Assembly (NCBI GenBank): GCA_000621905.1
Contig: JHXB01000003.1
Location: forward strand, 204,099 to 268,098
Origin: Lachnospiraceae bacterium NC2004
Lineage (GTDB): Bacteria; Bacillota; Clostridia; Lachnospirales; Lachnospiraceae
Length of the DNA stretch: 64,000 nucleotides
Direction of reading: 5' to 3'
A program made the translations under genes and the position numbers. Position 1 is the stretch's first letter, and every line of letters starts with the position of its first letter. Shown in pieces: positions 13,535-42,948 of this stretch. Under the pieces are notes generated by a model. It did no database searches. It was not told where the DNA came from and was given only the letters and a program-made list of their open reading frames with translations.

Positions 13535-13560
13535 AAGCCTCCCTGGCTTATAGGAGGCTT
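13535..13560 (-). terminator. Terminator of metK
   Basis: Minus-strand AAGCCTCC / GGAGGCTT stem with a 10-base loop followed by TTTTTTA, 34 bases after the metK stop. Confidence 0.88.
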
Positions 13561-13593: not shown

Positions 13594-14775
13594 TTAATTT
13601 AAATTGCTTTTGATCTCATCTACTTTATCTAGATGTTCCCATGGAAGATCAATATCTGTTCTTCCAAAATGACCATAAGCAGCGGTTTGTTTATAAATAG
13701 GTCTTCTAAGATCCAGCGCATTTATAATTGCTGCCGGTCTTAAATCGAAGACCTTATTTATTACTTCAACAATCTTCTCATCTGACACAGTTCCGGTGCC
13801 AAATGTCTCAACAGCTACAGATACAGGTTTAGCAACTCCGATTGCGTATGCGAACTCAACTTCAAGTTTCTTGGCAACACCGGCAGCAACAAGATTTTTA
13901 GCCACCCATCTTGCTGCATAAGCTGCAGAACGGTCTACCTTTGTTGGATCCTTACCAGAGAATGCGCCGCCTCCGTGGCGACCTGTTCCACCGTAAGTAT
14001 CAACGATAATCTTACGACCGGTAAGTCCTGCATCACCCTGAGGTCCACCGATAACAAAACGTCCGGTAGGATTAACATAGTATATAGTATCATCATCTAA
14101 AAGCTCATTAGGTATAACAGGTTTAATAACTTTTTCGATAATATCCTTTCTGATCTGTTCTAATGTAATCTCCTCAGCATGCTGTGTAGAAATAACGATA
14201 GTGTGAATCCTCTTAACGTTATCATTTTCATCGAATTCAACAGTAACCTGACTCTTGCCATCCGGTCTTAAGTATGATAATGTACCATCTTTTCTAACCT
14301 TGGTTAATTGTCTTGTAAGACGATGAGCAAATGAAATAGCAGGTGGCAAATATTCCGGAGTCTCGTCAGTAGCATAACCAAAAATGATACCCTGATCACC
14401 GGCACCGGTTCCAAAGTCTTCAGTCACACCTTCCTGTTTAGACTCAAACGCCTTATCGACACCCAATGCAATATCAGCAGACTGCTCATCAATTGAAGTT
14501 AAAACAGCGATTGAATCTGCGTTGTATCCATCTACGTTATTAACATAACCAATTTCTCTGATTGTCTCTCTTGCTACTTTGGCGATATCAACATATGCAT
14601 CCGTCGAAATCTCACCAACCACCAAAGCTAAACCTGTTGCAACAGTTGTCTCTGCTGCAACTCTTGAATTAGGGTCCTGCTCAATAAGTGCATCCAATAT
14701 CGCGTCTGAAATCTGATCTGCAATCTTATCAGGATGTCCCTCCGTAACTGATTCTGATGTAAATAATCTTCCCAT
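13594..14775 (-). CDS. metK: S-adenosylmethionine synthetase
   Basis: MetK makes SAM from methionine and ATP. The 393-residue protein has the standard N-terminal signature [31 protein letters not shown] and the P-loop-like [21 protein letters not shown]. The ATG follows AAAGGAAG. It lies 139 bases downstream of the nifK-like gene on the same strand, with no terminator between, so it may be read from that operon as well as from its own promoter. I found no recognisable SAM riboswitch in the gap. Its position next to a radical SAM and nitrogenase-like operon may be meaningful. Confidence 0.97.
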
Positions 14776-14914: not shown

Positions 14915-16261
14915 TTATCCTACGTTTTGACCTATGTACTCTAGCAACTCTAGTTCTTTTGCATGATTATCTTCCTTAACCACAGTAAGATAATCTTCTA
15001 AAAGTGTTAGAGCACCTCTTATTCCCACATACGACTTATTAACAATAGCCTTATTATATGCAGGAAATGATATATCAAGTCCAGTCCTCTTCTTACCATT
15101 AGCTAAATTTCTATCAAGTGAACTGCCAAGAACCAACTCAATATTGTTATTGGACAGGATGTCACTGATCTCCTTACCATCTTGAGTGTAGTAAACTTCA
15201 TTTGCTATGGTATTTAAGACATCATTTTCTGAATCATCAGATGACTCTTTCTTGCTCACACGATCGGTAACAATAATAGTCTTTATATCCGCACCAATAT
15301 ATCTTTTTAAAAAGCCTCCGACTCTTATAGCAACACTCTCATCCGCAACAATTGCAAGAGACTTGCTGCCTGCTTCATTATAAAAATCATCAATAACTCC
15401 CTGATAATAATAGTCGAATTCTTTCTCTTCTTTCTCAATAAATGCATCTACCACATCACTGCTTACACCAAGTTCATCTGCAATCTTCCTAACAAATTCA
15501 GCAACCTCAATCGGTCCTGTCGGAACGTTGCTAAACTCTACATTTTTAACGCCATACAATTCTTCTAATGCTTTGGCAGGTGCATTGCCCCATCTTGAAA
15601 ATGAAATACTTATAGCAGCAGTTGAAGCATTTTTAAACTCTTCCACTCCATTGCCGTATGAAAAGAAAGTGTTAACGCTAAGTCCAATGCCCTCTAATAT
15701 ACGTTTTATCTCAGCTAAATTACCACGATAATATATATCCTCTTTTGGTAGAATTCCGAAAATGTTAACTAACTTATCATTCTTCTCTTCAGGAATATTA
15801 ACTACTAAAGGCAGCTTCTTTATTATGTCAGTCACTACACTCTCATATCCGTAGTGACTGTCACCATGAAGTCCGGCAGTCAAAGACTCAATAATTGTCT
15901 CTCCCTGCTCTCTTGATTCTCTGGTCATCGCCTCTACGTCATCACCAACCATAGCCGATACACAACTGTTTAGCACAATATATAAATCGCCGTTGACAAC
16001 TTTAATAGTGTTCTTTATCTGCTCTCTTAATCTAGATGCTCCTCCAAATATAACATGTCTTTCCTGAGCATCAGTAGAAAACACATTCTGACCGGTAAAA
16101 TATGTATTATCCAAGCCGCTTGATTTATTGGAAAGGTAACTCTGAATTGCGCATCCTGAATTAGAATGTACTATAGGAACCACTCCGTTTATAGCTTGAA
16201 CTGTCTGAAGCACTCCGTGAAGTGCACAACCATTTCTTGGACTCTTAACACATGTCTGCAT
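14915..16261 (-). CDS. Nitrogenase-like component 1, NifK/beta-type subunit
   Basis: The 448-residue protein belongs to the nitrogenase component 1/oxidoreductase family. It keeps three cysteines at the P-cluster positions of NifK: Cys12 (GCALHGVLQ), Cys37 (HSNSGCAIQS) and Cys100 (LNSCVSAMVGDD), with one extra at Cys4. Later family landmarks include SFSRWGNAP and VPTGPIEVAEF. It should pair with the NifD-like product, whose gene ends 1 base before this one, and take electrons from the NifH-like ATPase. The set differs from true nitrogenase (see the NifD-like entry), so substrates such as methylthio compounds or tetrapyrroles are more likely than N2. AGGAGG precedes the ATG. Confidence 0.85.
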   Translation of the reverse strand: MQTCVKSPRNGCALHGVLQTVQAINGVVPIVHSNSGCAIQSYLSNKSSGLDNTYFTGQNVFSTDAQERHVIFGGASRLREQIKNTIKVVNGDLYIVLNSCVSAMVGDDVEAMTRESREQGETIIESLTAGLHGDSHYGYESVVTDIIKKLPLVVNIPEEKNDKLVNIFGILPKEDIYYRGNLAEIKRILEGIGLSVNTFFSYGNGVEEFKNASTAAISISFSRWGNAPAKALEELYGVKNVEFSNVPTGPIEVAEFVRKIADELGVSSDVVDAFIEKEEKEFDYYYQGVIDDFYNEAGSKSLAIVADESVAIRVGGFLKRYIGADIKTIIVTDRVSKKESSDDSENDVLNTIANEVYYTQDGKEISDILSNNNIELVLGSSLDRNLANGKKRTGLDISFPAYNKAIVNKSYVGIRGALTLLEDYLTVVKEDNHAKELELLEYIGQNVG

Positions 16262-16262
16262 T

Positions 16263-17681
16263 CTAATTCACCTCCTGCTTAACAAACCAGTTAGCACTCT
16301 TTCTAAGCCAGCTTAATTTGATTTTAGAATTATCTCTGTTTCTAAGATAATCATAGAAATCTCCGCGATTCTTTACATTTTCTATAATCTTAACAAGCTC
16401 TTCTACACCTTCATATCCAAGATAAGTAGACGCTTCTAAAGATATTGAAACATTGGCATATTGTGCAAGGTATCCTGCCTGATTATCAAAACTAATGTAA
16501 TAATCCACTTCATTTTTCTTTAAAACATTATACTTTTCAAACAACTGACCGTTAGCAACAATTACCGGAATAGAATTATTAAGTGAATTAATCTTCTTAA
16601 GATTATCTCTGTTGTTAGTGTCTATATATCTTATTCCAAGTCCTCCTACTTCACCGCCAATCTTTTCTATAAACTCTGTAAAATGAATAGCTGAAGCGAG
16701 ATCAATATCTAAGAATACACTCTTTCCGTCAAGAAGCTTTCTATTGATTCTTTTATCCAACTCTTCTTCCTGTTTTCTTATGTATTCGTTGGCTTTCTCT
16801 TCAATACCAAGAGCTTTAGACAGTTTTTGAATAAAATGTCTGCTTCCTCTAAATCCAATTGGAACACTGCTCTTTATATACTTAACTCCAAAGACTTCTT
16901 CTAATTCTTTAGCAAAATACTCTCCCTCATCCGGATTCAATGTAATTGTAGCCTTGGCATAACCGGCTTTCTTAATACTGTTAACATCTGAAAATCTCGG
17001 AAGCAGCTGAAAGTTGATATCAAGATCTTTTAGTATCTTTACAATTGAAGCTACATTTTTAGCATTTTCAGAGAGGGTAACTACATTTATAAAATCTCTC
17101 TTTTCTGTAGTATCAATAGCAGTTCTATCAACAACATTCCTAAGCAAACTGTGCAATACAATATCATATCCCGTTACCGGAGTCTTGGTCTTAAATCCAT
17201 CTGTAGTTATATACACTACCTTAGCGTCAATCTCATCCTCCAACTCTAAGATAACTGAATTAACATCATCATTGTTAATTGCAACAACAGGCGTGCCGAC
17301 TATAAATATAAGCCTGGCATGAACTTCCTCATATGCTCTTAAAACAGTCTTTCTTAGTTTCTCATCGCCACCTAATATAGTGTCTCTCTCGTTAAGGTTG
17401 CTTGAATACCAGTGAACATTTCTGCTTGAATTCTGTTCAAGAATAGAAGCAGCGCACCCGATAACACCATGTATAACAATAGCCGTCTCATCAATAAAGC
17501 TTAATGCATTTAAAGCATACAAAATCTCATCGTAATTACTCTGAGAAAGCGTTCTTATCTTCTGCTTTATCTCCGAAACATCAACTTCATCATTGATTCC
17601 TTTTAGAGTACCGTTATAATTACTTAATGTTGTCAAGCGCTTTTCTCTGGTCTGAACTCTTCTCTCATCTATAAAACTCAT
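16263..17681 (-). CDS. Nitrogenase-like component 1, NifD/alpha-type subunit
   Basis: The 472-residue protein is aligned to NifD by VIHGVIGCAAS (Cys76, the middle P-cluster ligand) and SSNLNERDTILGGDEKLRK, the counterpart of NifD's EKDIVFGGDKKL. The first P-cluster cysteine and the third (CPxGLIGDD in NifD; here GTPVVAINNDD) are absent. I see no cysteine or histidine in the expected FeMo-cofactor ligand contexts. With three cysteines from the partner, the interface could hold a 4-ligand Fe-S cluster, as in DPOR-like or other group IV enzymes, rather than a standard P-cluster. GAGGAAC precedes the ATG. Order is nifH-D-K-like with gaps of 20 and 1 bases. Confidence 0.83.
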   Translation of the reverse strand: MSFIDERRVQTREKRLTTLSNYNGTLKGINDEVDVSEIKQKIRTLSQSNYDEILYALNALSFIDETAIVIHGVIGCAASILEQNSSRNVHWYSSNLNERDTILGGDEKLRKTVLRAYEEVHARLIFIVGTPVVAINNDDVNSVILELEDEIDAKVVYITTDGFKTKTPVTGYDIVLHSLLRNVVDRTAIDTTEKRDFINVVTLSENAKNVASIVKILKDLDINFQLLPRFSDVNSIKKAGYAKATITLNPDEGEYFAKELEEVFGVKYIKSSVPIGFRGSRHFIQKLSKALGIEEKANEYIRKQEEELDKRINRKLLDGKSVFLDIDLASAIHFTEFIEKIGGEVGGLGIRYIDTNNRDNLKKINSLNNSIPVIVANGQLFEKYNVLKKNEVDYYISFDNQAGYLAQYANVSISLEASTYLGYEGVEELVKIIENVKNRGDFYDYLRNRDNSKIKLSWLRKSANWFVKQEVN

Positions 17682-17701
17682 ATCATCAGTTCCTCTTTTC
17701 T

Positions 17702-18577
17702 TTAGATTACTTCAGCGCCTGCAACTACACCGCTCTCTAAATTATATATCTTATCGCCCCATTCTCTTGCCCAGTCACGAAGCTCTCCTGCTCCTAAAGG
17801 ACTTGGAACCACAAGGTCTTCATTTTCTGCAATGTGTTTAGCAAGATTTCTATATATATCTGCCTGCTCAGAAGTTGGATTGGCCTCAATTACAGTCTTT
17901 CCATATAATTCACTCTGCTGTACAACAATCGAGCGATTAACATATCCCGCTACACTTGTACCTGTCTTACTTGTAAAATCATCAATAATAGATTTAGAAT
18001 ATCCGGCGGTAATACTGTTAGCGATTACTCCGCCTAGTTTAGCACCGCCTGTAGGCGCATATTTATTAATTGCTTTAAAGAGATTGTTAGCGGCATATAT
18101 TGCCATAAAATCCGAAGAGCTAACAACATACGCTCTATCTGTAATTCCATCACGAATAGGAACTGCAAAACCTCCACACACAACGTCTCCTAAGACATCA
18201 TAAAGAACAAAATCAGGTTTAAACTCCTCAAAAAGATTAAGTTCCTGCAAAAGATTAACTGATGCGTTAATACCTCTTCCTGCACATCCGACTCCCGGAA
18301 CAGGACCACCCGACTCAATACAAAGCACTCCCTTAAATCCCTTTACGGATATATCATCGAGATGAATCTTATTTCCTTCTCTTAAACTGTCTAATACTGT
18401 CGGAAGATAATTATTACCTCGTAAAGTGTTGGTAGAATCACTCTTAGGATCGCAACCAATCTGTATCACACGATATCCTGCTTCAGCCAAAGCTGCACTG
18501 ATATTAGATGTTGTGGTAGATTTACCAATTCCTCCTTTTCCATAAATTGCAATGTGTTTTCCTATTCTTTCAGCCAT
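17702..18577 (-). CDS. Nitrogenase-like iron protein (NifH/BchL/CfbC family)
   Basis: This is a dimeric ATP-dependent reductase for the D/K-like component. The 291-residue product has the deviant Walker [10 protein letters not shown] (13-21), the two cluster-ligand cysteines Cys98 (GVGCAGRG) and Cys134 (DVVCGGFA), and the switch II aspartate region YDVLGD. All key residues are intact, so an active 4Fe-4S ATPase is expected. The ATG at 18577 is preferred over a TTG six codons earlier because AAAGGAAA lies at proper spacing. It follows the ABC transporter genes with a 54-base gap. Confidence 0.92.
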
Positions 18578-18631
18578 TTTTTTATTTCCTTTCAATATTG
18601 TTTAAACTTATAAATACCTCGAAGTTACCTC

Positions 18632-19609
18632 TTAAATTGTAAAATCATTAAACAAATGACAAGCTGCATAATGATCTTTTTCTATTATCTGTAAATCCCA
18701 CGGTTCTTTTTCTAAACATAACTTGTGGCAAGATTTACACCTGCTGTGAAACGGACACCCTGTCGGCGGATCTAGTATTGAAGGAATCTCACCCTCCAAG
18801 ATATGTTGTTCAAAGTTCTCTCCAACATTTTTTACCATACCTGCCTTTAGTAAAGCCTTAGTATATGGGTGTTTTGGATTCTCAAAGATAGTTTCTGCTT
18901 TGCCATATTCTACGATTTTACCAAAGTACATAACCGCTATATAATCACTTATATAGCGAACGCTTGCTAAATCGTGTGATATGAACAGATAACTGATATG
19001 TTGTTTCTTTTGAAGATCCTTAAAAAGATTAAGTATCTGACCTCTTATTGAAACATCAAGCGCCGATATCGGTTCATCTAATACAAGTAACTCCGGCTCT
19101 AAAGCTATCGCTCTTGCGATTGACAAACGCTGACGCTGTCCTCCACTGAATTCGTCCTGATATCTTTTCTTGTGTTCAGGAATAATCCCGACACTATCAA
19201 GTAAACTGTCAATACGGTAATCAATTTCTTTTTTACTTAAATCAGTGTTAATAGTAAGTGTTTCTTTTAAAAGATTCTCTATCGTCATATATGGATCCAA
19301 AGAACTGTATGGATCCTGAAAAACAGCCTGCACCTTCCTTCGATACTGTTTTATATCTGCTTTAGAGAACTTGGTAATATCCTTGTCTTTATACTTTATT
19401 GTTCCTCCGGAAGGCTTTTCCAGTCCCAAAACCAGTCGGGTTGTTGTTGTCTTACCCGATCCGGATTCTCCAACTATACTAAGTGTTGAATCGTCATAAA
19501 TAGTGAAATTTACATCTGATAAACTTGCTGCCTGAACCGGTTTACTAAAGATTCCCTGTCTAACGTTGTATATCTTTTTAACATTTGTAAACTTTAGTAG
19601 TTCTATCAT
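18632..19609 (-). CDS. Opp/Dpp/Nik-type ABC importer ATP-binding protein (DppF-like)
   Basis: The 325-residue ATPase has Walker A GESGSGKTTT, signature FSGGQRQRLSIARAI and Walker B LLVLDEP. The C-terminal oligopeptide/dipeptide extension has the cysteine-rich segment typical of this family (GCPFHSRCKSCHKLC), which may bind an Fe-S cluster. The ATG at 19609 (GGAGG 8 bases away) overlaps the preceding TGA (ATGA). It drives import with the sister ATPase, two permeases and the lipoprotein encoded upstream. The dedicated location before the nitrogenase-like genes suggests that it imports the enzyme's substrate or a metal complex. Confidence 0.92.
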   Translation of the reverse strand: MIELLKFTNVKKIYNVRQGIFSKPVQAASLSDVNFTIYDDSTLSIVGESGSGKTTTTRLVLGLEKPSGGTIKYKDKDITKFSKADIKQYRRKVQAVFQDPYSSLDPYMTIENLLKETLTINTDLSKKEIDYRIDSLLDSVGIIPEHKKRYQDEFSGGQRQRLSIARAIALEPELLVLDEPISALDVSIRGQILNLFKDLQKKQHISYLFISHDLASVRYISDYIAVMYFGKIVEYGKAETIFENPKHPYTKALLKAGMVKNVGENFEQHILEGEIPSILDPPTGCPFHSRCKSCHKLCLEKEPWDLQIIEKDHYAACHLFNDFTI

Positions 19610-20571
19610 CCTTCCAACCTCCAGCAATATGCATAATTCCCTTTGCCATTCTCCACTTTAGGAGGAGTCTCCTTTATGCATCTCTTATCACACACTTCAC
19701 ACCTTGGAGCAAACATGCATTTATCAGATACGTCATACAATGCCGGCGGCTGTCCTTTTATAGGCTCAATATAGTCCATTTTCTTTGCAGAAAGATTAGC
19801 TGTGCTAAGCAACGCTTTGGTATATGGATGTTTAGGATTCTCAATCAGATCCTTTACATTGCCTTCCTCTACAATGCGCCCGGCATACATAACCGCTATC
19901 CTATCACACATCATTGCAATTACTTTAATATCGTGAGAGATCAATATAATCGAAGCACCGATATCCCTCTGAATCTGCTTCAAAAACTGTAAGTATTGCA
20001 GCTGAATCGTCGCATCTAATGCTGTAGTCGGTTCGTCTGCAATAATAAGCCTTGGATTACCTGCAATAGCGACTCCACCTGCTATACGCTGCAACATACC
20101 TCCGCTAAGCTGAAACGGATATGCATTCATACGCTCAACCGGAATTCTTAAGTATTCAAAAATCTTTTTGGCTTCTTTAACAGCTTCCTTTTTAGTTACT
20201 TTATTATGCAACCTTATAGTTTCCACAACCTGACTTCCAACTGTAAAAAGCGGATTAAATGCAGTCTGTGGATTCTGCATTATCATTGCAAGTTCCTTGC
20301 CTCGATACTGTTTCCACTCTTTTTTTGTAAGTTTTGTCAAATCCTTACCTTCATATAGAATCTCACCATCAACTATCTTAGCTCCTATATAATTCACATA
20401 TCCCATTATCGACATAGCTGTAAGACTCTTACCACATCCGGACTCTCCAATTACTCCAAAGCATTCCCGGTGATTAACATGAAAGCTAATGTCGTTAACA
20501 ACATGAAGGGTACCCTCATCAGTCTCTATCTCTGTCTTGAGATTCTTAACCTCTAACAACGGATCCTTCAT
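19606..20571 (-). CDS. Opp/Dpp/Nik-type ABC importer ATP-binding protein (DppD-like)
   Basis: The 321-residue ATPase has Walker A GESGCGKSL, signature LSGGMLQRIAGGVAI (an M in place of the usual Q/R position) and Walker B LIIADEP. The oligo_HPY-type C terminus has MFAPRCEVCDKRC cysteines. It overlaps both neighbours by ATGA junctions, so the transporter genes are translationally coupled. Substrate class (peptide, nickel chelate or other) is not determined by sequence. Confidence 0.92.
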   Translation of the reverse strand: MKDPLLEVKNLKTEIETDEGTLHVVNDISFHVNHRECFGVIGESGCGKSLTAMSIMGYVNYIGAKIVDGEILYEGKDLTKLTKKEWKQYRGKELAMIMQNPQTAFNPLFTVGSQVVETIRLHNKVTKKEAVKEAKKIFEYLRIPVERMNAYPFQLSGGMLQRIAGGVAIAGNPRLIIADEPTTALDATIQLQYLQFLKQIQRDIGASIILISHDIKVIAMMCDRIAVMYAGRIVEEGNVKDLIENPKHPYTKALLSTANLSAKKMDYIEPIKGQPPALYDVSDKCMFAPRCEVCDKRCIKETPPKVENGKGNYAYCWRLEG

Positions 20572-21425
20572 ACAACCTTCACCTTTCTTTCTCTTTGAAG
20601 TACTTTCTTAAGCCATTCGCCAAAATAATTGAAAGCAATAACTGTAAGTATAATCACTCCTGACGGGAATACCGATACCCACCATGCTACGTCAAATGTA
20701 TTTCTTCCCTCTGAAACCATTGCACCAAGTGTTGGTTCAGGTGGCTGAACACTAAGTCCCAAGAAGCTTAAAGACGCTTCTGTCAAAATTGCATATCCGA
20801 TATCCTGAACTATCATAACTATAAGTATGTTCCACAATCCCGGAAGAATATGCTTAAACAATATACGAGGTACGGATGCACCAATTAATTGTTCCTGTAA
20901 AATGTAATTATTGTTCTTTATCGATAGAACCTGCCCTCTTATAATCTTGGCATATCTTGTCCAGATTGATAAAGCTATTGCAAGTACAACGGATGAAAAT
21001 CCTGAACCAAGTACTATTCCCAAGAGCATCGCCAGAATTATACTAGGAAACGCAAGCATAGCATCACATACTCTCATAAGTACGCTGTCAAATGCTCCAC
21101 CTATATATCCTGCAAAGAGACCGAGAATCGTTCCTATTCCACCACCCACAATAATAGCAACTACAGCCACATAAAGTGATATTCTGCTTCCAATCATGAT
21201 TCTACTTAGCACATCCCTGCCCAGATAGTCAGTTCCGAATATGTAAGCAATGTTTTTGCCACCGAGGATAAATGGTTCAAGATTCTTATCAGAAAGTGAT
21301 GTTAGATAAGGGTCCTGAAAAACTATATACCGACCAATCAATCCGTTTATTACAAACAGAGCTATAATTATTACAGAAATAACAGGAATTCTATATTTAT
21401 TCTTTTTAGCCTTTTTCTTCTTCAA
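20568..21425 (-). CDS. Opp/Dpp-type ABC importer permease (DppC-like)
   Basis: The 285-residue permease starts with a lysine-rich tail (KKKKAKKNK) and a first membrane helix, then has the DppC landmark FGTDYLGRDVLSRIMIGSRISL and the EAA loop near GASVPRILFKHILPG. I place the start at TTG 21425 because AGGAAGGAG is 9 bases upstream. The longer frame starts at a TTG inside the preceding gene (21476) without a convincing ribosome site. No ATG is suitable. Rare start codons are unusual in this operon. Confidence 0.85.
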   Translation of the reverse strand: MKKKKAKKNKYRIPVISVIIIALFVINGLIGRYIVFQDPYLTSLSDKNLEPFILGGKNIAYIFGTDYLGRDVLSRIMIGSRISLYVAVVAIIVGGGIGTILGLFAGYIGGAFDSVLMRVCDAMLAFPSIILAMLLGIVLGSGFSSVVLAIALSIWTRYAKIIRGQVLSIKNNNYILQEQLIGASVPRILFKHILPGLWNILIVMIVQDIGYAILTEASLSFLGLSVQPPEPTLGAMVSEGRNTFDVAWWVSVFPSGVIILTVIAFNYFGEWLKKVLQRERKVKVV

Positions 21426-21453
21426 CTTATCTGACTCCTTCCTGTTAATTCCT

Positions 21454-22368
21454 TTATAATCTGATTCTTGGGTCAATTGCTGCCTGTATTAAATCAGCAA
21501 CAATATTAACTATTATTACCATTGCAGTCATTACTATAACCAGCCCCTGGATTGCAGGAAAATCACGCTGCATAATCGACTGATAAGCTAAAAAACCAAT
21601 GCCCGGCCATGCAAAAATAGATTCAACAATCAACGTTCCTGTCAATTGACTTGCAAACATTACAGAAATCATTGATAACATCGGCGGAATTGAATTGATC
21701 AGGCAATGTTTAACAACTATGGTCTTCTCTCCTACACCCTTAAGTCTTGCCATCTTAACATAATCGCATTTTAATGAATCAAGCATACTGGCTCTTAGAA
21801 TCGGTGCAAGTATTGTCGAAAGCAAAATGCTTGATATACCAACCGGCAAGATATAGCTGCTTATCCCTTCCATTCCGCTGGCAGGAAGCACTCCCAGTTT
21901 CACGCTAAAGATATGAATCGCTACAATCATCAAAAGGAACATTGGAGTTGATTGCCCTACTGAATAAAACAACATTAGAATCTTATCTAAGAACTTATTT
22001 CTATATATTACCGAAAGCAATCCCTCTATAAAAGCCAGTAAAATTGCAAAAAACATTGTTGCCCCTGCAAGTTTCAAAGTATTTGGAAGCCTGCTTCCGA
22101 TTAATTCTGAAACAGGTCCCTTAGTAGAAAAGGACTCTCCAAGATCTCCGTGTAATAAACCAACAATATACATCACGAACTGTTCAGCAACGGGTTTATC
22201 TAAGCCCATACGAGTAATGAATTCCTGCTTAGCCTCAGGCTCAGCCGTCTGTGGAACATATACCACAGACGGATCACCCATAAGCCTAATTACAACAAAT
22301 ATCAAAAGAGTAGCTATAAATATAGTAATAATAGATTGATATAACTTCTTAATAACGAATCTAGTCAT
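21454..22368 (-). CDS. Opp/Dpp-type ABC importer permease (DppB-like)
   Basis: The 304-residue permease has six predicted helices, the family N terminus (FVIKKLYQSIITIFIATLLI), GDLGESF and the EAA loop (RLKGVGEKTIVVKHCLINS). The ribosome site is weak (GAGG about 12 bases before the ATG). It follows the substrate-binding gene by 17 bases. Confidence 0.9.
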   Translation of the reverse strand: MTRFVIKKLYQSIITIFIATLLIFVVIRLMGDPSVVYVPQTAEPEAKQEFITRMGLDKPVAEQFVMYIVGLLHGDLGESFSTKGPVSELIGSRLPNTLKLAGATMFFAILLAFIEGLLSVIYRNKFLDKILMLFYSVGQSTPMFLLMIVAIHIFSVKLGVLPASGMEGISSYILPVGISSILLSTILAPILRASMLDSLKCDYVKMARLKGVGEKTIVVKHCLINSIPPMLSMISVMFASQLTGTLIVESIFAWPGIGFLAYQSIMQRDFPAIQGLVIVMTAMVIIVNIVADLIQAAIDPRIRL

Positions 22369-22385
22369 ATTTTACTTTAAACCTC

Positions 22386-24062
22386 TTATTTATCAGCTTT
22401 TGTAATAGATGAGTATGTTAAGGCAAATGAGCCCGGTTTGTTATACGCATCCCAATCTCCAACCTTTGAAGAAGCTGCCCAAATAGTATCAATATAGTTC
22501 AATCCTAAGAAAAGTTTGTTTTCATCATTTATACGGTGCAAAATCTTGTTATCGTATTCATTTCTCTCATTAACATCAAGACTTGCTCTTCCTTTTTTAT
22601 ACCACTCATCAATCTCTTTGTCAGTGTGATTCAATGTCTCTGATCCATCAGTAGCATAGAAATTATACTGTGAACGACTTAATATACCATCAGATGTCAA
22701 TACCGGTGATGTCTGTAATCCCATAGCACCATATGCTTCATCTGTTAAATCCTGTACTAAAAGAAGATTCTCAAGCGTTGCTGTATCATGCTGAATAATC
22801 TCAACCTGTAATCCAACTGCCTGAAGATAGCTTGCTACAAGCTCAGTAAGTTTGATCTGATAAGCACGCTCAGGCTGAGTATAGAAACGAATGGTTGGCT
22901 TTTCAAATGCATCAGGATATCCAGCCTCTTTCAATAATTCCTTAGCCTTCTCCGGATTATACTCTGTAGCCTTCCATGAAGGATCCCAGTTCTCACCGGC
23001 ATCAGATACTTTCCAATACTTCTCAGGCTTTGCATATCCACTAAAGAACTCATCAGCAATCTCCTGACGATTGATAGCATAGTCAATAGCCTCTCTAACC
23101 TTGACATTCTGAGTTGCCTCACCTGTATCCTTCCATGTTCCCTGGAAATAGATACCGGACATTCTCTCACCCTTAATATCTAACAAATGAATATTAGAAT
23201 CGCTCTCTAAGCTATCAAGGTCATCAAAGCTTGCCTGGATCAAGTCAACCTGGCCACCTCTTAACATTGAAAGTCTGGTACTTCCGTCAGCAACCTCTAA
23301 TATCTTCAAGAATTTAAACTCTGGAACTAATCTCCAATGATCCTCTACAGCTTCAAATGTAATAGAGGAACCGGACTCAGACTCAAGAAATTTATATGGG
23401 CCTGTTCCAATTGGATGCTTACGGAACTCTTCTTCTCCAACCTTCTCAATGTAATCCTTAGGAAGGACGACGCCTAAAGTGTTATAATGTGCTGTAAAAT
23501 ACTGTACAATCTGTGGTTCAGAAGATTTAAAGCTTACGGTTACTTTATTATCTCCTTCTATTTCAACCTTATCAAACAACACGCGAAGGCTTGATCCCCA
23601 TGCACAATCATCCTTGGCATATCTCTCGATTGAATACTTTACATCCTCTGCAGTAACATCCGAACCATCATGGAACTTAACACCATCACGTATTACAAAT
23701 GTAATCTGAGTGTAATCTTTATTAACCTCATAGCTTTCTGCAATCTCTGGAACAATGTTTCTGTCTTCATCGATATCCAACAAGCTATCAAACAAAGGAT
23801 GAACTACATTATCCTTTGTAAAAAAGTCAGTACTTATAGGCGATAAATCCTCTGTATTAAAACCTGTAATAGCTATAACTACTGTGTCATCATCTGACGG
23901 AACATCTCCTGTCTCACCTTTAGTTTCTTTACTGTTTTCACTCTTGTTGCTTGAAACAGAGTTCTTACTCTCTGTCTTACTTCCACATCCAACAAACGAT
24001 ACTGCAAGAACTGTTGTCAGTATCAATGCCAATAAACTTCTTTTAAATTTAATCTTTTTCAT
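22386..24062 (-). CDS. Substrate-binding lipoprotein of the Opp/Dpp/Nik-type importer (SBP family 5)
   Basis: The 558-residue exported lipoprotein has a basic start, a hydrophobic core and a lipobox VSFVGC (Cys26), then a Ser/Glu-rich tether (to about 58). The SBP_bac_5 fold is recognised by FVIRDGVKFHDGSDVTAEDV, HPIGTGPYKF and VREAIDYAINRQEIA. The family binds peptides, nickel chelates and other small solutes; the pocket cannot be read without a structure. GGAGG precedes the ATG, 2 bases after the radical SAM stop. It is the ligand-recognition subunit of the dedicated importer, so its ligand is the best handle on the nitrogenase-like enzyme's substrate. Confidence 0.92.
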   Translation of the reverse strand: MKKIKFKRSLLALILTTVLAVSFVGCGSKTESKNSVSSNKSENSKETKGETGDVPSDDDTVVIAITGFNTEDLSPISTDFFTKDNVVHPLFDSLLDIDEDRNIVPEIAESYEVNKDYTQITFVIRDGVKFHDGSDVTAEDVKYSIERYAKDDCAWGSSLRVLFDKVEIEGDNKVTVSFKSSEPQIVQYFTAHYNTLGVVLPKDYIEKVGEEEFRKHPIGTGPYKFLESESGSSITFEAVEDHWRLVPEFKFLKILEVADGSTRLSMLRGGQVDLIQASFDDLDSLESDSNIHLLDIKGERMSGIYFQGTWKDTGEATQNVKVREAIDYAINRQEIADEFFSGYAKPEKYWKVSDAGENWDPSWKATEYNPEKAKELLKEAGYPDAFEKPTIRFYTQPERAYQIKLTELVASYLQAVGLQVEIIQHDTATLENLLLVQDLTDEAYGAMGLQTSPVLTSDGILSRSQYNFYATDGSETLNHTDKEIDEWYKKGRASLDVNERNEYDNKILHRINDENKLFLGLNYIDTIWAASSKVGDWDAYNKPGSFALTYSSITKADK

Positions 24063-24064
24063 AA

Positions 24065-25276
24065 TTAATTTCCTCCATATATACTTTTCTTTGGTTCATA
24101 TTCATTACAGCCAAATACTGGCAATAATTCCTCTTCAATTCTATAGATATCATTAGCTATATCATCTTTTCTAGCCGTTGTCTCATATACTTGTTTGTAT
24201 CCAATTCCATTCTTCTTCTGAATCTCAACAAGTTTATGACACATATCTACATACCACAAGGTGTCGGGTGTTGTCATTCCTTCAAAGGCTGTTCCTGCTT
24301 TTGGTTGAAGATAACTATAAGAAACTGTAACACCCTTTTCAGATAGATATTTGGTTCCGTCTAAAGTCAAAGTTGCCGGTTCAATACCTATAACAAAATT
24401 TGAACTTGAGTAACCTCTACCAAATACATTTGCAGCATACTCTAAAGCTTCTACCCAATGCTCCCAACCCCCTTCACGACTACTCTTTCCGGGACAGATT
24501 GTCTTATATATATTCTTATCCCAGATTTCTAAGTTCATTGATACACTCTTAAAGCCTTGCTCTTTCAAGCGATCAAGGTACTCTAAATCACTTGGAGCTG
24601 CACATTCAGCAATAGCTACTGCATCATGTCCTTCCGGAAGCGCATCATCTATAGCTTCCATTGTATCTATGTAATAATCAAGCTCTCTTCTCTCCGGCAC
24701 TACACCACCGGTAAAGTGAATCTTTTTTACCACACCTTCGTTATATGCGGCAGCAACCGCTTCAGCAATCTGCTTTGGATTCTTCCAGAATACCTCTCGA
24801 TTACCTTTGTTGATACTACAGAACAGGCAATCTAATCCTTTATCCTTATAAGCGCATTCGTTACTATAACAAACTCCCATCGTATCACCACAGATTAACT
24901 TGGCTATCGTTCTTAGTTCTTTGCCGTCAGATGCAATGCCTTTGTAATACTCCGGTCTTTCAGGTAATTTAACATCAAACACTTTATTGCCATTACCATC
25001 AACTAAAATATATTTATCACCATCAAGATCAACCTTATATTTTGCATCCTTCTCGTACTTAAACGGAACAATCAAACCGCTCGGTGTAAGAAACTCTTGT
25101 GGAATAAGTGGCGCTTCGTTATACTGATTCAAATATAAATCATATACAAACTCCAACAAATCCTTTCCTAATCGACTTTTAAGTTCCTCGTTCGCCTTAT
25201 CGGTGATGCCTACACCCTTCACACACAAGAAACTCTTAATCTTCAGTTCATCCCACAACTGATCTTTAACTGACAT
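24065..25276 (-). CDS. Radical SAM protein with non-canonical cysteine motif, in the nitrogenase-like operon
   Basis: The 403-residue protein has radical SAM features in its middle part: CYSNECAYKDKGLDCLFC (Cys136, 141, 150, 153) followed by a strand-loop HFTGGVVPERRE like the GGE SAM-binding motif. The standard CX3CX2C is missing; the last three cysteines form CX8CX2C. The first 125 residues resemble no domain I know. A cofactor maturase (NifB analogue) or a substrate-activating enzyme are both possible. The ATG at 25276 (MSVKDQLW) is preferred, with AAGGAGG 11 bases upstream; an ATG three codons earlier is too close to it. It is separated from the yezD-like gene by an attenuator. Confidence 0.72.
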   Translation of the reverse strand: MSVKDQLWDELKIKSFLCVKGVGITDKANEELKSRLGKDLLEFVYDLYLNQYNEAPLIPQEFLTPSGLIVPFKYEKDAKYKVDLDGDKYILVDGNGNKVFDVKLPERPEYYKGIASDGKELRTIAKLICGDTMGVCYSNECAYKDKGLDCLFCSINKGNREVFWKNPKQIAEAVAAAYNEGVVKKIHFTGGVVPERRELDYYIDTMEAIDDALPEGHDAVAIAECAAPSDLEYLDRLKEQGFKSVSMNLEIWDKNIYKTICPGKSSREGGWEHWVEALEYAANVFGRGYSSSNFVIGIEPATLTLDGTKYLSEKGVTVSYSYLQPKAGTAFEGMTTPDTLWYVDMCHKLVEIQKKNGIGYKQVYETTARKDDIANDIYRIEEELLPVFGCNEYEPKKSIYGGN

Positions 25277-25361
25277 TTTTATCATTCCCTCCTTAATGTA
25301 TAATTGAAAATCAATTAATTCTCCCATCAACTCCAATGTAAAAGACTTAAATTGATCTTCA

Positions 25362-25437
25362 TAAAATAAAAAGAGGTCACAAATGAAACGTTTAAAAGAA
25401 ACGTATCAAATGCAACCTCCGGTTGTCCGGTCAGTTG
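25362..25437 (-). promoter_or_regulatory. Transcription attenuator between the yezD-like and radical SAM genes
   Basis: Read on the minus strand, a long hairpin (25419 to 25373; outer arms GAGGT/ACCTC, inner arms ACGTTT/AAACGT, CTTTT loop) is followed by TTTTTATTTTAT, a strong intrinsic terminator. A second hairpin (25437 to 25413; CAAC/GTTG outside, CCGG/CCGG inside) shares the bases 25413-25419 with the terminator's 5' arm, so the two cannot form together. It starts 7 bases after the yezD-like stop codon. This is the layout of an attenuator that sets read-through into the downstream operon. The signal is unknown. Confidence 0.6.
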
Positions 25438-25443
25438 AACTTT

Positions 25444-25596
25444 TTACAATCTGTGCTTTTCTGTTTTGTCAACCTGAACAATCTTTCCGTCTTGAACAAT
25501 AATTGTAATTGTCCCAAACTTCATACCATCAATCAACCTGTTCAACGTATTAATCTGGTTTGTGTTCAAACCGCTTTTATCTTGTTCATCACTCAT
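25444..25596 (-). CDS. YezD-like small protein (DUF2292 type)
   Basis: The 50-residue protein ends with the YezD/DUF2292-type hairpin: FGTITIIVQDGKIVQVDKTE then KHRL. An N-terminal polar stretch and a helix (QINTLNRLIDGMK) precede it. The ATG at 25596 is 7 bases after GGAGG; an ATG two codons earlier touches the ribosome site and is unlikely. Family members are often found beside sulfur-assimilation genes, and their molecular role is not known to me. It is the first gene after the operon promoter, so a regulatory or accessory role in the system is plausible. Confidence 0.78.
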   Translation of the reverse strand: MSDEQDKSGLNTNQINTLNRLIDGMKFGTITIIVQDGKIVQVDKTEKHRL

Positions 25597-25620
25597 AATC
25601 ATTCCTCCGTATTATGTGTG

Positions 25621-25676
25621 TGTCAATTTGGTCTCTTGACATTAACCACTATAAAGGCTAAATAAGGTTTTGGCAA
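25621..25676 (-). promoter_or_regulatory. Promoter and operator of the nitrogenase-like operon
   Basis: Minus-strand TTGCCA (25671-25676), 17 bases, TATAGT (25648-25653), start near 25641. An inverted repeat TGTCAA-N9-TTGACA (25621-25641) covers the start site, as a repressor operator would. Confidence 0.7.
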
Positions 25677-26296: not shown

Positions 26297-29200
26297 TTAA
26301 TTATGCACTCTGGTATAATGAACATCAGCCAAAATTATTGCATTTTCTTCAACATCTTCTTTACCTTTCCACGCCATGATATATCTAATAACAGCATCAC
26401 ACGGAACGTATCCTGACATCTTATACTTTTCTACCTGCTCTCTATATTTTTTAGAAAACTGTAACACCGCTTTATCACTACCATCTATACTTGCGTATAA
26501 TTTGTCACCCTTTAGCTTTAACTTATCTCCGCTTCTTAATGATAATATCAACCTCTTTTTATCTTTGAAGAAATTAAGAAATACATCTTCATGTGTCATT
26601 TGAGATATAATTTTAGCGGACTTTGGATAATGCGTATCATCTTTTATAAACTTATCAGCATACTTTGTAAACCTGTCAAATTCATCACCACAATAATGTA
26701 AGTATAGTGATTTTTTAGCTCTTGTCATAGCAACGTACAGTTTGCGAATATCATTCTCATCATCAAATACTGCTTTCTTTACAAGCATAAAAACATTATC
26801 ATATTCTCTACCTTTAGATTTATGCATCGTTGAAACCGTAATTACGCCTTGCTCGTCTGTATAAAAATCTTCTATCCTTGACTCATGAAGAAACATATCC
26901 AAATCACTCTTGTATTTCTTTGGATAATTCTCCTCAAATGTTTTCAAGATACGATTAACAATCAACAGACACTCACTCTCTGAATATCTATCATTCAAGG
27001 AATCAATTGCTTCATTCCAACATTTATTACTAATAGTAGGTGAAGCATCAGAAACCTTAAGCTTCTTTAGAAAATAGCGAATCTCAGCTATATCAGTTAT
27101 TCTAAGCATATTTATCGATTGTATCAGTTTAGCGGGAATACACATTTGCTCTAGTGTACCAAGAACAATCAGTGCTTCTTCATTGGTTGATGTCAATATG
27201 CAAGTTGATCCCTTTAAATCCAAAGCTCTTACTTCTGCACACACTGCAAGTTCTATGTTTCTATCGCAATGTTTTACCATTCTAACCATACCATTATTGA
27301 CAGAAATCGGTTTAATATCTTCGCTCTTCATTCTTTCAGGTAACATTTGAACAAAATGATTAGCAAAACCAACTACACTCTTATCGCTCCTATAATTGTC
27401 AATCAATGAATACTGTTTCGCTCCATGTTCAGTTATAAATGACTTTAGATACTTAGAATCCGCTCCTCTGAACCTGTATATATTCTGATCATCATCACCA
27501 ACCGCTATAACTCGCATGTCGTCATTGAAATTCATCAAAGCTTCTACAAGTTCGTATTCTTTCTCATCCATATCCTGTGCTTCATCTATTACCAGTACTG
27601 TTTTACTGATACGAACCGGATCAACCTCATTATTTTTGATCTTATCAAGAGCATCACTAACGACATTAGGCGATTCTCCTATACTTCCAACCATACCAAG
27701 AATATCAAAACAATACGAATGAAAAGTCTTTATCTCAATATAATTAGCAGCATTACCTATAAGCATACGAAGCCTATGTTTAAACTCAATCGCTGCAGCT
27801 CTTGAAAATGTTAACATAAGCAATTGTTCATGCTTAACATCTTCTAGCATTAACAGAGCAGCTAGCTTATGAACCAATAGTTTAGTTTTGCCACTACCCG
27901 GTCCTGCCGAAACTACTATATGCTTAGATGTGTCATCATTAATAATCTCAAGCTGTCTCGATGACAATTCATCAAATAACATATGATATTTCGCTGGCGT
28001 TACATTAAGCTTAATCTCCTCCGACCTGCTGCCTGAAAAATATTTAGATATAAACTTCTTGTATTCCAACTGAAAATAGTCATTTACAAACTTAAGAGCA
28101 GCATTATAATCCTTTACCATCATATTGGCATATTCACCCACAATATGTATCTGCTGTATCTTAAGTTTATAATACTCATCAAGTTGCTTATAATCATCAA
28201 TCTTGTACTTTATCTTATTGTCCGTAACCAATCTGGTAATCTCCATACCGGTATAAAGCACAAGAAAACCTCCCTCTAAATCAAGAGCACCTATTTTAGA
28301 TAGAAAAAGTAATGCCTCTTCAATATCCGAACAGGTAATATGAGTCTTAGATTCTGTATTATATGCTTCCTTTAGTTCAATTACAGAAAACTCTACATAT
28401 GCTTTTTCTGTATTGACAGCATTATCAAAGCTTTTATCAAATAAGTAATCGATAATAAACTCAGATATATTCTCGCTCTTTTGTCGAATCTGTTTTATTT
28501 CCGATATATCTCTTGAAAATGATATAGCTACATTATCAGTTGCCAGATCCTGCTCTTTTTTCACATAGTTCCTTATAGACCAGTAATAAAACAATTGCCT
28601 TATATTCTTTACCGTGCTTAGTTTAATTCCTGACTTTATAGCTGCATCATTAATTTTTTTATAGTTAGTCCATGAATTGTCATTCTCCATGTAGGAAAGC
28701 AAGAATCTCTCCAATGCTCTAAATCGTCTTAGGGCATGCATAGACTTGTTAACCGTACTAGATTTATAAATATACGCAGTTATATCCTTAGAGTCGGCAA
28801 GTATTCCCGCCTCTCTTAATGATTGAATAGAGTGAATCACTTCACTTTTCTCAATACCAAGATTATCTGCTAAATAATCAACTCTAGACTCTGCTTCTCC
28901 ATTATCGGCCAAAGATTTTCTTTTGCTGGATATCAAAGAATTAAATATACGTTTCGCAATATCTCTGTTATCATCTGTGAATCTAGGTGAGCTGTCAATA
29001 ATAGTATTCGCTTCAATAGCACTACATGCAATAATACTATCTGCATATACTTGTGGTGAATTCTTGCCACGAACTATATATCCGGCACTTTCAAGGGCAT
29101 TAATAGCTGTTCTCACTCTTGTCTCAACATCCATTTTGCCTTCCTGCCATCCCGCCTTTCTGGCAATCTCCAAGGCAGAACAACATATACTTGGGCGATA

Positions 29201-32796: not shown

Positions 32797-32825
32797 ATTA
32801 TATTCTTTAGAGTGTTATCAGTTAA
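32797..32825 (-). promoter_or_regulatory. Internal promoter before the ThiS-like gene
   Basis: Minus-strand TTAACT (32820-32825), 17 bases, TATAAT (32797-32802), overlapping the stop of the desulfinase-like gene. It would let the carrier genes be expressed independently of the long sulfur operon. Confidence 0.6.
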
Positions 32826-33859
32826 TCATCCAACCTTTGTTTAGCTTCCTCTAAATATTCAGGAGCTAACCAGCTATCTATATCAAAGTCGTTCTTAATA
32901 AATCCACGCTCAAGTAGGAATTCTTTCTGTGACTTCAGCGCATTAACAGCTTCATCTGTAAATCCCGGGGTAAACGACAGATAGTAATCAGGATCTCTTG
33001 CTTCTAACACCTGTTTAATCGTAGTTCCATATTGACCTTTGGCCGATATCTCATCAACCTCGTTCTTATGGCTTTGGGCCCACTTAGCTGCCCTTAGCGT
33101 TTCAGTTAAATAGCTGACAACTATATCTCTATTATTGTTGGCAAATTCTTCATTTACCGTGATAACCGAAGGATAGATATTGTTAGTGTTATCTATATCT
33201 TCCTTAGAAATATCTATAAGGATTTTAGCAAGTTTCTTGTCCTTAATCTCATGAGCAAGAGCGCCGTGAGCTAAAAACACATCTATCTTTCCTTCTCTTA
33301 AGGCTATTAACTCTTCTTCATGCTGTAAAACTGTATCATTATCCTTGTTAAATTTGAAAACTATATTCCCCTTATCAAGATGTTTCGCAGCTTTATTATT
33401 ACCTTTTTTTATGTCGACAAATGTTATCTCCGACTCATCAACTCCATAATGCTTAAACACCGAATTATAACCTCTAAGCACCATAGCCTGCCAGAAATCT
33501 ACCCTCTCCACATCAGACTTAGGAACCGAGAATTTAAGCTTTTTAAGATCATCAGGCAATTTATAATCGGTATCAGTTCTAACCATCAACGCGTGTGTCT
33601 GATTAATCATTGTAAGTCCAAGTAATTTGGTCCTATCACCGTTAGACATAGCCCATATAGGCGGAATATTGCCGCCTTCTCTAAACCATAACGGGCTCTC
33701 CTGAGTAAAATGCTTAATCTGCTCTTTAGGATCTAAGTTTTGTAGTAGTTCAAGATCAGCGTCTAATTCATTAAATGCTGTCTTTAACCAGCCTTTTTGT
33801 AATGCTATCTCAGATGCACTTCCAATAGGACATCTTGTTAAAACAACCTGTCTGCTCAT
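32822..33859 (-). CDS. DszB-like sulfinate desulfinase
   Basis: The 345-residue protein has the periplasmic-binding-protein fold of the SsuA/TauA type but no signal peptide. It resembles DszB, the 2'-hydroxybiphenyl-2-sulfinate desulfinase. The likely active residues are kept with the right spacing: Cys10 (LTRCPIGSAS; DszB Cys27), His50 and Arg60 (KHFTQESPLWFREGGNIPP; DszB His60/Arg70, the same 10-residue spacing). The C terminus matches too (SWLAPEYLEEA against QWAAPEFL). Expected reaction: hydrolysis of a C-S bond in a sulfinate, releasing sulfite. The sulfite reductase of the same operon fits this. A solute-binding function is the alternative, but a cytoplasmic protein argues against it. 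It overlaps hemL by ATGA. Confidence 0.7.
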   Translation of the reverse strand: MSRQVVLTRCPIGSASEIALQKGWLKTAFNELDADLELLQNLDPKEQIKHFTQESPLWFREGGNIPPIWAMSNGDRTKLLGLTMINQTHALMVRTDTDYKLPDDLKKLKFSVPKSDVERVDFWQAMVLRGYNSVFKHYGVDESEITFVDIKKGNNKAAKHLDKGNIVFKFNKDNDTVLQHEEELIALREGKIDVFLAHGALAHEIKDKKLAKILIDISKEDIDNTNNIYPSVITVNEEFANNNRDIVVSYLTETLRAAKWAQSHKNEVDEISAKGQYGTTIKQVLEARDPDYYLSFTPGFTDEAVNALKSQKEFLLERGFIKNDFDIDSWLAPEYLEEAKQRLDD

Positions 33860-35142: not shown

Positions 35143-35155
35143 AATGCACCTTCCT

Positions 35156-36124: not shown

Positions 36125-36140
36125 ATAGTTTCCTCACGTA

Positions 36141-37655: not shown

Positions 37656-37670
37656 AATAACTTCCTCTAA

Positions 37671-37697
37671 GATTCTTCGCTTGCGCTCAGAATGACA
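37671..37697. repeat. Dispersed repeat copy inside the siroheme operon
   Basis: On the minus strand, TGTCATTCTGAGCGCAAGCG then AAGAATC, the same core as 9434-9460, sits in the 42-base gap between hemC and cobA/hemD. Its edge touches the hemC stop codon. Whether it affects messenger stability is unknown. Confidence 0.7.
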
Positions 37698-38606: not shown

Positions 38607-38609
38607 AGA

Positions 38610-39254: not shown

Positions 39255-39260
39255 TGTTAA

Positions 39261-42832: not shown

Positions 42833-42869
42833 AATTCTTTTATCTCCTATCTTTTTAGTATGATTTAAA

Positions 42870-42899
42870 ATGATACCATATATAAGCGTATATGAGGAA
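42870..42899 (-). promoter_or_regulatory. Candidate promoter of the sulfhydrylase-siroheme-desulfinase operon
   Basis: Minus-strand TTCCTC (42894-42899), 18 bases, TATCAT (42870-42875), between the terminator at 42949-42980 and the start at 42832. The match is weak, but a promoter is expected here because a terminator precedes it. Confidence 0.4.
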
Positions 42900-42948
42900 T
42901 ATATATATACTATCACTAAATATAGGTATTACATATAACCGAAAAAGA

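Follow-up and report, generated by a model that had tools for sequence, protein, structure and literature searches.

The window analysed here, a 64,000-nucleotide stretch of the genome of Lachnospiraceae bacterium NC2004 (contig JHXB01000003.1, positions 204,099 to 268,098; genome G000 below), carries on its minus strand an operon in which a radical S-adenosylmethionine (SAM) gene and the genes of an Opp-type importer precede homologues of nifH, nifD and nifK (hereafter H, D and K). Sequence features place the operon very probably in the Isr kind, described for isethionate use in Rhodobacter capsulatus. We regard it as probably an Isr core with a swapped front end, a divergent radical SAM protein and an Opp importer having replaced the Ssu-type importer and radical SAM protein of its relatives. 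The core itself is the Isr system already described; new here are the Opp front end, the presence or absence of the cassette within one genus, the occurrence of one H-D-K set with varying cassettes, the metK linkage and an RNA element.

Assignment of the operon to the Isr kind

IsrBHDK of R. capsulatus comprises a radical SAM gene and H, D and K genes, all required for the use of isethionate as sole sulfur source (Morimoto et al., 2024; PMC11423573). In that paper, SsuCAB is the importer partner, outside IsrBHDK proper, and isrBHDK with ssuCAB is enough for isethionate use by a foreign host. IsrD keeps one of the three P-cluster cysteines, Arg and Pro/Ser standing at the other sites, and IsrK has three cysteines, at positions 12, 37 and 99.

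The window holds the corresponding set, identified by Pfam and NCBIfam as H, D and K homologues with a radical SAM gene that is not of the NifB type. The radical SAM gene, of the IsrB family (24065-25276, on the minus strand like the rest of the operon), matches Pfam Radical_SAM and has the variant motif C-x8-C-x2-C; its start codon is probably the ATG at 25276 rather than an upstream TTG, and the frame extended to 25336 scores 346.5 bits against NCBIfam NF045502. The NifH-like reductase gene, placed as IsrH type by a tree (17702-18577; Pfam PF00142, Fer4_NifH, E 1.7e-94), encodes Cys98 and Cys134, and its start is probably 18577, again not an upstream TTG. The D gene, of IsrD type (16263-17681), and the K gene, of IsrK type (14915-16261), both match Oxidored_nitro. 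The sole cysteine of D is Cys76, with Arg12 and Pro131 at the Arg and Pro/Ser sites of the paper, as aligned within the family and not directly to NifD. Because D has this one cysteine, it lacks an equivalent of Cys275 of the iron-molybdenum cofactor (FeMo-co) ligand pair Cys275/His442. Across 72 aligned family rows, Cys76 is present in 70, Arg12 in 71 and Pro131 in 70 (Ser in 2), and in K Cys12 is present in 71, Cys37 in 70 and Cys100 in 70; the window K also has a Cys4, which is not conserved.

Relatives of D were collected by one scan of one genome per species with two peptide patterns, which gave 142 matched stretches, 74 relatives and 73 loci, members lacking the patterns being missed. 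The loci come from, among others, Lachnospiraceae, Clostridium, Treponema, Azoarcus, Chlorobium, Anaeromyxobacter, Rhodopseudomonas and Rhodovulum. A search with chosen reference sequences detected a NifB-type gene in none of the 73. In a quick tree of D (23 Isr loci, 12 of 19 outgroup proteins and two Treponema proteins), 24 Isr rows were split from 14 NifB-type rows with a support of 100 (starred); the Isr clade includes Rhodovulum strictum, and the window groups with two other Lachnospiraceae rows (99, starred). The same split in a tree of H, for which 20 Isr loci were picked by hand, had a support of 92, not starred. The R. strictum locus (L129) has the order radical SAM-H-D-K, with a monooxygenase gene of the NtaA/DmoA type and then an SsuC-like gene nearby, a layout that agrees with that of R. 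capsulatus as given in the Fig. 2 legend and Table 1 of PMC11423573.

None of the NCBIfam equivalog cut-offs for nitrogenase, DPOR, COR or Cfb was reached by the window proteins: the nifH equivalog gave 376.0 bits against a cut-off of 394.35, and the CfbC profile 332.5 bits against 402, in an operon with a K homologue. The traits of MarBHDK were also lacking, D having a single cysteine and the radical SAM protein being of NF045502 and not of the NifB type. The genome has a single nitrogenase-grade NifH (316.5 bits), the remaining four matches scoring at most 31.2 bits. On the features tested, the operon is not of the Mar, Cfb, DPOR or N2-fixing kind. An earlier reading made from the letters alone (the sequence-only reading) had described a relative of nitrogenase that does not fix N2, has its own importer and is linked to organosulfur compounds, and this is borne out. 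It had cited Mar and Cfb among the known relatives that do not fix N2 and had named placement inside a Mar or Cfb clade as a refuting outcome; the cysteine pattern and the tree put the window in the Isr group, and no tested feature places it inside a Mar or Cfb group. The ten genes that it named, closely spaced or overlapping between 25602 and 14915, are all present, and Pfam and NCBIfam agree with its labels.

With IsrBHDK/SsuCAB of R. capsulatus the operon shares the radical SAM, H, D and K genes, the cysteine pattern of D and K, a setting in sulfur assimilation and a dedicated ATP-binding cassette (ABC) importer, and its D falls in one clade with that of Rhodovulum. It differs in having a five-gene Opp-type importer instead of SsuCAB, in its divergent radical SAM protein (43% identical to that of Rhodovulum), in the inclusion of metK, and in the yezD gene and RNA attenuator in front. 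MarBHDK resembles it in nitrogenase-like C-S bond chemistry but has nitrogenase-type metalloclusters, a NifB-like MarB and another cysteine pattern (PMC12552129). The isethionate sulfite-lyase IslAB likewise cleaves the C-S bond of isethionate with release of sulfite, but is presented in PMC11423573 as a glycyl radical enzyme with an activating radical SAM protein and no nitrogenase-like part.

An Opp-type front end in place of Ssu

Downstream of the radical SAM gene lie genes for a family-5 solute-binding lipoprotein of the Opp/Dpp/Nik kind (22386-24062; Pfam SBP_bac_5), OppB-like and OppC-like permeases (21454-22368 and 20568-21476; Pfam BPD_transp_1 and NCBIfam), and OppD-like and OppF-like ATPases (19606-20571 and 18632-19627; ABC ATPases with oligo_HPY by Pfam and NCBIfam). 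With blastp thresholds of 150 bits for the radical SAM protein, 130 for SsuB and 90 for Opp, a radical SAM gene of the Isr family was found in 58 and an Ssu-type ATPase in 51 of the 73 related loci. Only two had an Opp-like match, one at the edge of L095 and the other the MetN of L129; weaker OppF-like matches in L062 and L067 fall below the threshold. No radical SAM gene stood beside an Opp importer in any of the 73 loci, 29 of which are shorter than 17 kb, so that absences in loci are weak evidence. An Ssu-type gene, a label given to matches down to about 40 bits, lay within 3 kb on the same strand for 68 of the 83 copies of the radical SAM gene. The lipoprotein of the window had no match at E 1e-90 in 298 other genomes of the family. 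The sequence-only reading had named absence of the transporter and radical SAM genes from most related loci as a refuting outcome and knew of no described system with the full gene set. The radical SAM gene is conserved in most of the related loci, whereas the importer there is of another kind; the full set with an Opp importer was not seen among them, but a close described system, IsrBHDK, does exist.

Isr loci of the Pseudobutyrivibrio type have H proteins 88-89% and D proteins 46-50% identical to those of the window, and most of these and related Lachnospiraceae loci have yezD, metK and the RNA element. They differ in their importer genes, which are of the Ssu type in L066-L075, L078-L083, L087, L088 and L160, and their radical SAM proteins, where placed in the tree, belong to other lineages.

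A difference in cassette is seen within the genus of the window. Genome G306 contains one contig with H-D-K-metK (L058) and a second with an Ssu-radical SAM cassette (L160). Its H-D-K-metK stretch is 97.9% identical to that of the window at the DNA level over 5,695 bases, and the proteins are 100% (H), 99% (D) and 99% (K) identical. In G306, yezD precedes H-D-K, and the 6.8-kb cassette at 18594-25404 of the window is missing, 143 bases being present instead. Since yezD also lies directly 5' of H in L060 and L061 (D 64% identical) and in L076 (D 49%), the cassette of the window looks inserted, not lost elsewhere. The only radical SAM protein of the family in G306 is 36% identical to that of the window and is encoded beside SsuB-SsuA-SsuC on the other contig; G000, too, encodes a single radical SAM protein of the family. 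It gave no match to the SsuA family above the cut-off of 163.5 bits, TRAP and other importer types not having been sought; a lone weak match, of 52 bits, corresponds to the desulfinase-like gene at 32822-33859. The SsuA-family match of G306, at 129.4 bits, is also under this cut-off.

The proteins closest to the radical SAM protein of the window are P0122 (77% identical) and P0123 (74%), and those closest to its lipoprotein are P0208 (85%) and P0209 (79%). All four list the same longest contig, of 27,364 bases, which suggests that the radical SAM and binding-protein pair was duplicated together. The fold of the lipoprotein fits many Opp/Dpp/Nik binding proteins about equally and for this reason indicates no ligand.

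Radical SAM lineages around one H-D-K core

The three cysteines of the radical SAM motif are kept in 106, 105 and 106 of 106 family rows. In a quick tree of 74 of these rows, left after removal of near-copies and including some long branches, the radical SAM protein of the window groups with P0122-P0124 inside a 13-row set (99, starred) that includes the proteins of Rhodovulum and Rhodopseudomonas, a second Anaeromyxobacter copy, P0125-P0127 (P0127 being from Clostridium sp. DJ247), P0130, L161 and, on a long branch, the archaeal P0204. The radical SAM protein of G306 groups elsewhere, with one Pseudobutyrivibrio protein and one from G240 (95, starred). The window thus has other neighbours in the tree of D than in that of the radical SAM protein, which is what one would expect of a swapped cassette.

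A radical SAM gene was found in 41 of the 44 loci of at least 17 kb, and two or more in 18, each locus having a single D of the Isr type. Half of the whole genomes examined (7 of 14) had between two and four copies of the radical SAM gene (in G794, one copy out of four is interrupted by stops in the matched stretch), and copies within one genome can fall in different deep lineages (L102, L104, L115 and L119). One strong D match per genome was found in 16 of 16, at 329 bits or more in 15 and at 228 in Rhodovulum; six of these genomes also have weaker, unclassified D-like matches of up to 267 bits. G302, G785 and G791 have two radical SAM copies and a single D-like match of any strength. These distributions make it likely, in our view, that radical SAM-importer cassettes are interchangeable around one H-D-K core. 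Within that core, rates differ markedly: in rows of the Lachnospiraceae type, identity to the window is 86-93% for H, 44-65% for D and 39-59% for K.

Linkage of metK and nucleosidase genes

The sequence-only reading had ended the operon before metK. The metK gene, for S-adenosylmethionine synthetase (13594-14775), belongs to the unit as its final gene: it is on the same strand, 139 bases beyond K, and metK occurs in 38 of the 73 Isr loci. Its product is 89% identical to the MetK of the Isr locus of Pseudobutyrivibrio sp. YE44, an NCBIfam metK. A terminator-like hairpin follows it (13535-13560, minus strand) and another lies 5' of yezD (25779-25762); as a class, terminator-like matches were about as frequent across the region as expected by chance (7 against 6.1). 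The single promoter of the sequence-only reading is not borne out by the counts, the region having 51 promoter-like matches against 44.9 expected (standard deviation 6.6), again about the chance level.

A gene resembling the 5'-methylthioadenosine/S-adenosylhomocysteine (MTA/SAH) nucleosidase, a label resting on matches down to about 40 bits, was found in 26 of the 73 Isr loci. The loci with metK or the nucleosidase gene come almost entirely from Bacillota. With the same references, neither metK nor the nucleosidase gene was found in any of 16 NifB-type nitrogenase-like loci from the same family (one family, 14 genomes), 14 of which had NifB. MTA/SAH nucleosidase also cleaves 5'-deoxyadenosine, an inhibitor of SAM enzymes (PMC10986504). 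The linkage of both genes to Isr but not to NifB-type loci suggests bulk consumption of SAM by the radical SAM protein as it acts on the substrate, in contrast to a maturase of the NifB type, and we incline slightly towards a radical SAM step at the substrate level. MtnA is needed for MTA salvage; it was not found in 8 of 12 genomes tested, namely G000, G306 and six more.

A candidate RNA element behind yezD

A candidate RNA attenuator, an addition to the sequence-only reading, separates yezD from the radical SAM gene. The yezD-like gene (25444-25602) encodes 52 amino acids (DUF2292; Pfam PF10055, E 6.2e-17) and matches NCBIfam OscA weakly, below its cut-off. It is followed by a candidate antiterminator stem-loop (25407-25440, minus strand) with an outer stem CAAC/GUUG, a UGA/AG internal loop, an inner stem CCGG/CCGG and an ACAA loop, whose 3' arm is overlapped by an intrinsic-terminator-like hairpin with a U run (25372-25420, minus strand). 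The predicted fold of 25345-25445 has a free energy of -25.6 kcal/mol (z -3.13).

A pattern search for the element gave 41 matches in the collected loci, some overlapping, with 32 distinct sequences. Their inner stems vary yet mostly still pair (CCGG/CCGG, CUAG/CUAG, CCAG/CUGG). Covariation over 22 sequences was 0.341, against 0.179 in shuffled alignments, none of 500 being as high, where the rows are related and the shuffles ignore kinship; it dropped to 0.136 or less when pairing partners were slid. Weaker measures were reached more often, pairs with two-sided change in 15 of 500 shuffles and further pair types in 77 of 500. A covariance model (R1), trained on 22 of 28 distinct cores so that training members match by construction, matches the element of the window, one of the 22 training rows, at E 4.7e-8, and gave 57 matches at E 1 or below in 1.38 Mb, training members included. 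Genomic context was tabulated for 49 of these, seven with E of 0.012 or more and L155 (the same place as L106) being left out. A T run follows the element in 44 of the 49; in 44 its 3' arm pairs into a downstream hairpin in the predicted fold; and in 44 a gene of a reference set (metK, SsuA, H, radical SAM, nucleosidase, SsuC, NifB and family-5 binding protein) starts within 700 bases downstream. The gene yezD lies just upstream in 16 of the 49, and YezD is a candidate sulfur sensor for the RNA, although a candidate only. G306 has one copy before H-D-K (L058) and one before its unlinked Ssu-radical SAM cassette (L160). Rfam 15 had no match at the element of the window (E 1 or below), nor at the element in three loci (E 0.5 or below).

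The element also precedes NifB-type operons, before NifB or a family-5 binding protein, at L044:4931-4964, L051:13978-14011 and L046:3551-3585, and may therefore mark a wider sulfur regulon. Separately, two T-box leaders lie near the Isr cassettes of Clostridium polyendosporum (L102:1973-2225 and 20344-20595).

Sulfur genes elsewhere in the window

A nitrite/sulfite reductase-type protein is encoded at 40716-41579 (minus strand; Pfam NIR_SIR, E 6.1e-30), adjoined by siroheme/haem genes at 33856-40427, with an O-acetylhomoserine sulfhydrylase-type gene at 41591-42916. Since these genes share one stretch, sulfite released by the operon could be used at once, and the sulfite reductase-type protein is its likely consumer.

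The gene at 32822-33859 (minus strand), within this stretch, encodes a protein that matches the desulfinase DszB (PDB 2de2, E 1.9e-15) and has no evident signal peptide; it has an aligned Cys, Arg and Gly-Gly, which we take to be the DszB active-site residues, and might desulfinate sulfinates to give sulfite. The matching place in the congener locus L058 lacks almost the whole gene (32900-33848). A flavoprotein with FAD, of the fumarate reductase/succinate dehydrogenase kind (43068-44924, minus strand), is encoded beside the sulfhydrylase and sulfite reductase genes. Upstream of the operon flank, a 1587-amino-acid double helicase with DEAD/helicase-C and UvrD parts (26297-31060, minus strand) is also missing at the matching place in L058. 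Among the other loci examined, on the plasmids L036 (Treponema saccharophilum pTS2) and L037 (Chlorohelix), several nitrogenase-like genes of the NifB type occur together with genes for ABC importers and for O-acetylhomoserine sulfhydrylase.

Discussion

We propose that the operon probably serves to import an organosulfonate other than isethionate and to break its C-S bond, yielding sulfite for sulfur assimilation. The joining of an Opp importer and a divergent radical SAM protein to an Isr core makes it likely that a different sulfur compound is harvested, and we think a substrate other than isethionate fairly probable. The substrate would enter through the lipoprotein and OppBCDF and would be acted on by the radical SAM enzyme at the cost of one SAM per turnover; that enzyme would have no part in building a metallocluster. 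The NifH-like dimer, with ATP, would drive electrons into D/K, which would complete the reductive desulfonation common to all cassettes; the sulfite would pass to the sulfite reductase-type protein, metK would remake SAM, and the unit would be turned on when sulfur is short, by transcription continuing past the hairpin downstream of yezD. As a tentative synthesis, one that we consider possible and do not hold firmly, Isr would be a plug-in desulfonation platform: a single ATP-driven H-D-K set, with metK, would serve radical SAM-importer cassettes that can be exchanged and that move horizontally, each dedicated to one organosulfonate and each carrying out the substrate-specific radical SAM step at one SAM per sulfur, under a shared new RNA antiterminator. 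On this view the window would have exchanged its importer for one of the Opp type and so gained access to a larger sulfonate, akin to a peptide or glycoside, as a sulfur source.

Several observations weigh against the main proposal. The linkage to metK and the nucleosidase is divided by phylum: a recount of the 44 long loci found metK in 28 of the 31 Bacillota loci but in only one, from Anaeromyxobacter, of the 13 from other phyla, and the nucleosidase gene in 21 of the 31 and none of the 13. The Rhodovulum and Rhodopseudomonas loci have neither gene linked, no nucleosidase gene was seen near the operon of the window, and the metK considered here is the operon copy. The nearest other lineage to the radical SAM group of the window, L161 (96, starred, on a long branch), comes from a genome of the same family (G295), where Ssu-type genes, metK and H adjoin it, so that the cassette may have come from inside the family. 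The sulfonate could also be bound directly by H, D and K, with broad specificity, and the divergence of D and K beyond that of H would also fit substrate binding by D/K. R. capsulatus is absent from the 73 loci of the one-genome-per-species scan, Rhodovulum standing in for its Isr proteins. The role of IsrB was left open by the authors of PMC11423573. We know of no activity for any Lachnospiraceae member of the Isr kind.

The division by phylum slightly lowers the probability of a substrate-level radical SAM step, of the main proposal and of the platform, and slightly raises that of an ordinary isethionate reductase, in which the radical SAM protein would mature or activate D/K, H-D-K would cleave isethionate and Opp would import isethionate or a close conjugate. 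The sufficiency of isrBHDK with ssuCAB in a foreign host (PMC11423573) agrees with this, as does the scarcity of linked metK outside Bacillota, and the place of the window protein in one starred set with IsrB of Rhodovulum and Rhodopseudomonas makes the same substrate possible. We nevertheless consider this rather unlikely, given several radical SAM lineages with their own importers around one D and, in Bacillota, a metK and nucleosidase linkage that suggests bulk use of SAM. To our knowledge, Opp-type binding proteins have not been associated with C2 sulfonates. Alternatively, the Opp genes might encode an importer of peptides or metal complexes in general that has merely come under sulfur control, with the sulfonate taken up otherwise and the operon serving as a mixed sulfur-scavenging unit. 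The lipoprotein fold, which points to no particular ligand, would allow this, but the apparent joint duplication of the radical SAM protein (P0122/P0123) with the binding protein (P0208/P0209) speaks against it, and SsuA-family matches elsewhere in the genome are under the cut-off (TRAP and other importers not sought); such a unit seems quite improbable.

Readings outside the Isr kind fare poorly. The adjacent metK, acting in methionine metabolism, and the frequency of NifB-type nitrogenase-like loci in the same family could be taken to favour a methionine salvage of the Mar kind on methylthio compounds. Mar D, however, keeps the ligands Cys270 and His429 and works with the NifB-like MarB (PMC12552129), whereas D of the window has one cysteine and its radical SAM protein is not of the NifB type; with MtnA not found in most genomes tested and metK in none of the 16 NifB-type loci, we regard this salvage as highly improbable. 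A tetrapyrrole or nickel-tetrapyrrole reductase (Cfb, DPOR or COR) is hardly credible: the DPOR and Cfb profiles match at low scores and haem/siroheme genes lie about 18 kb away, but every score is below its curated cut-off, the haem genes adjoin the sulfite reductase gene, and Cfb is described without a K subunit in PMC11423573, whereas K is present here.

That the radical SAM protein acts at the level of the substrate is suggested by the difference in cassette between congeners, by the multiple radical SAM lineages around one H-D-K core and by the linkage to metK and nucleosidase genes in Isr loci of Bacillota but not in NifB-type loci, and strain pairs that differ in the cassette make the question of this role testable. 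If the proposal is true, anaerobic bacteria would have a wider range of sulfonates available as sulfur sources, and a further candidate regulatory RNA would be added to those for sulfur acquisition.

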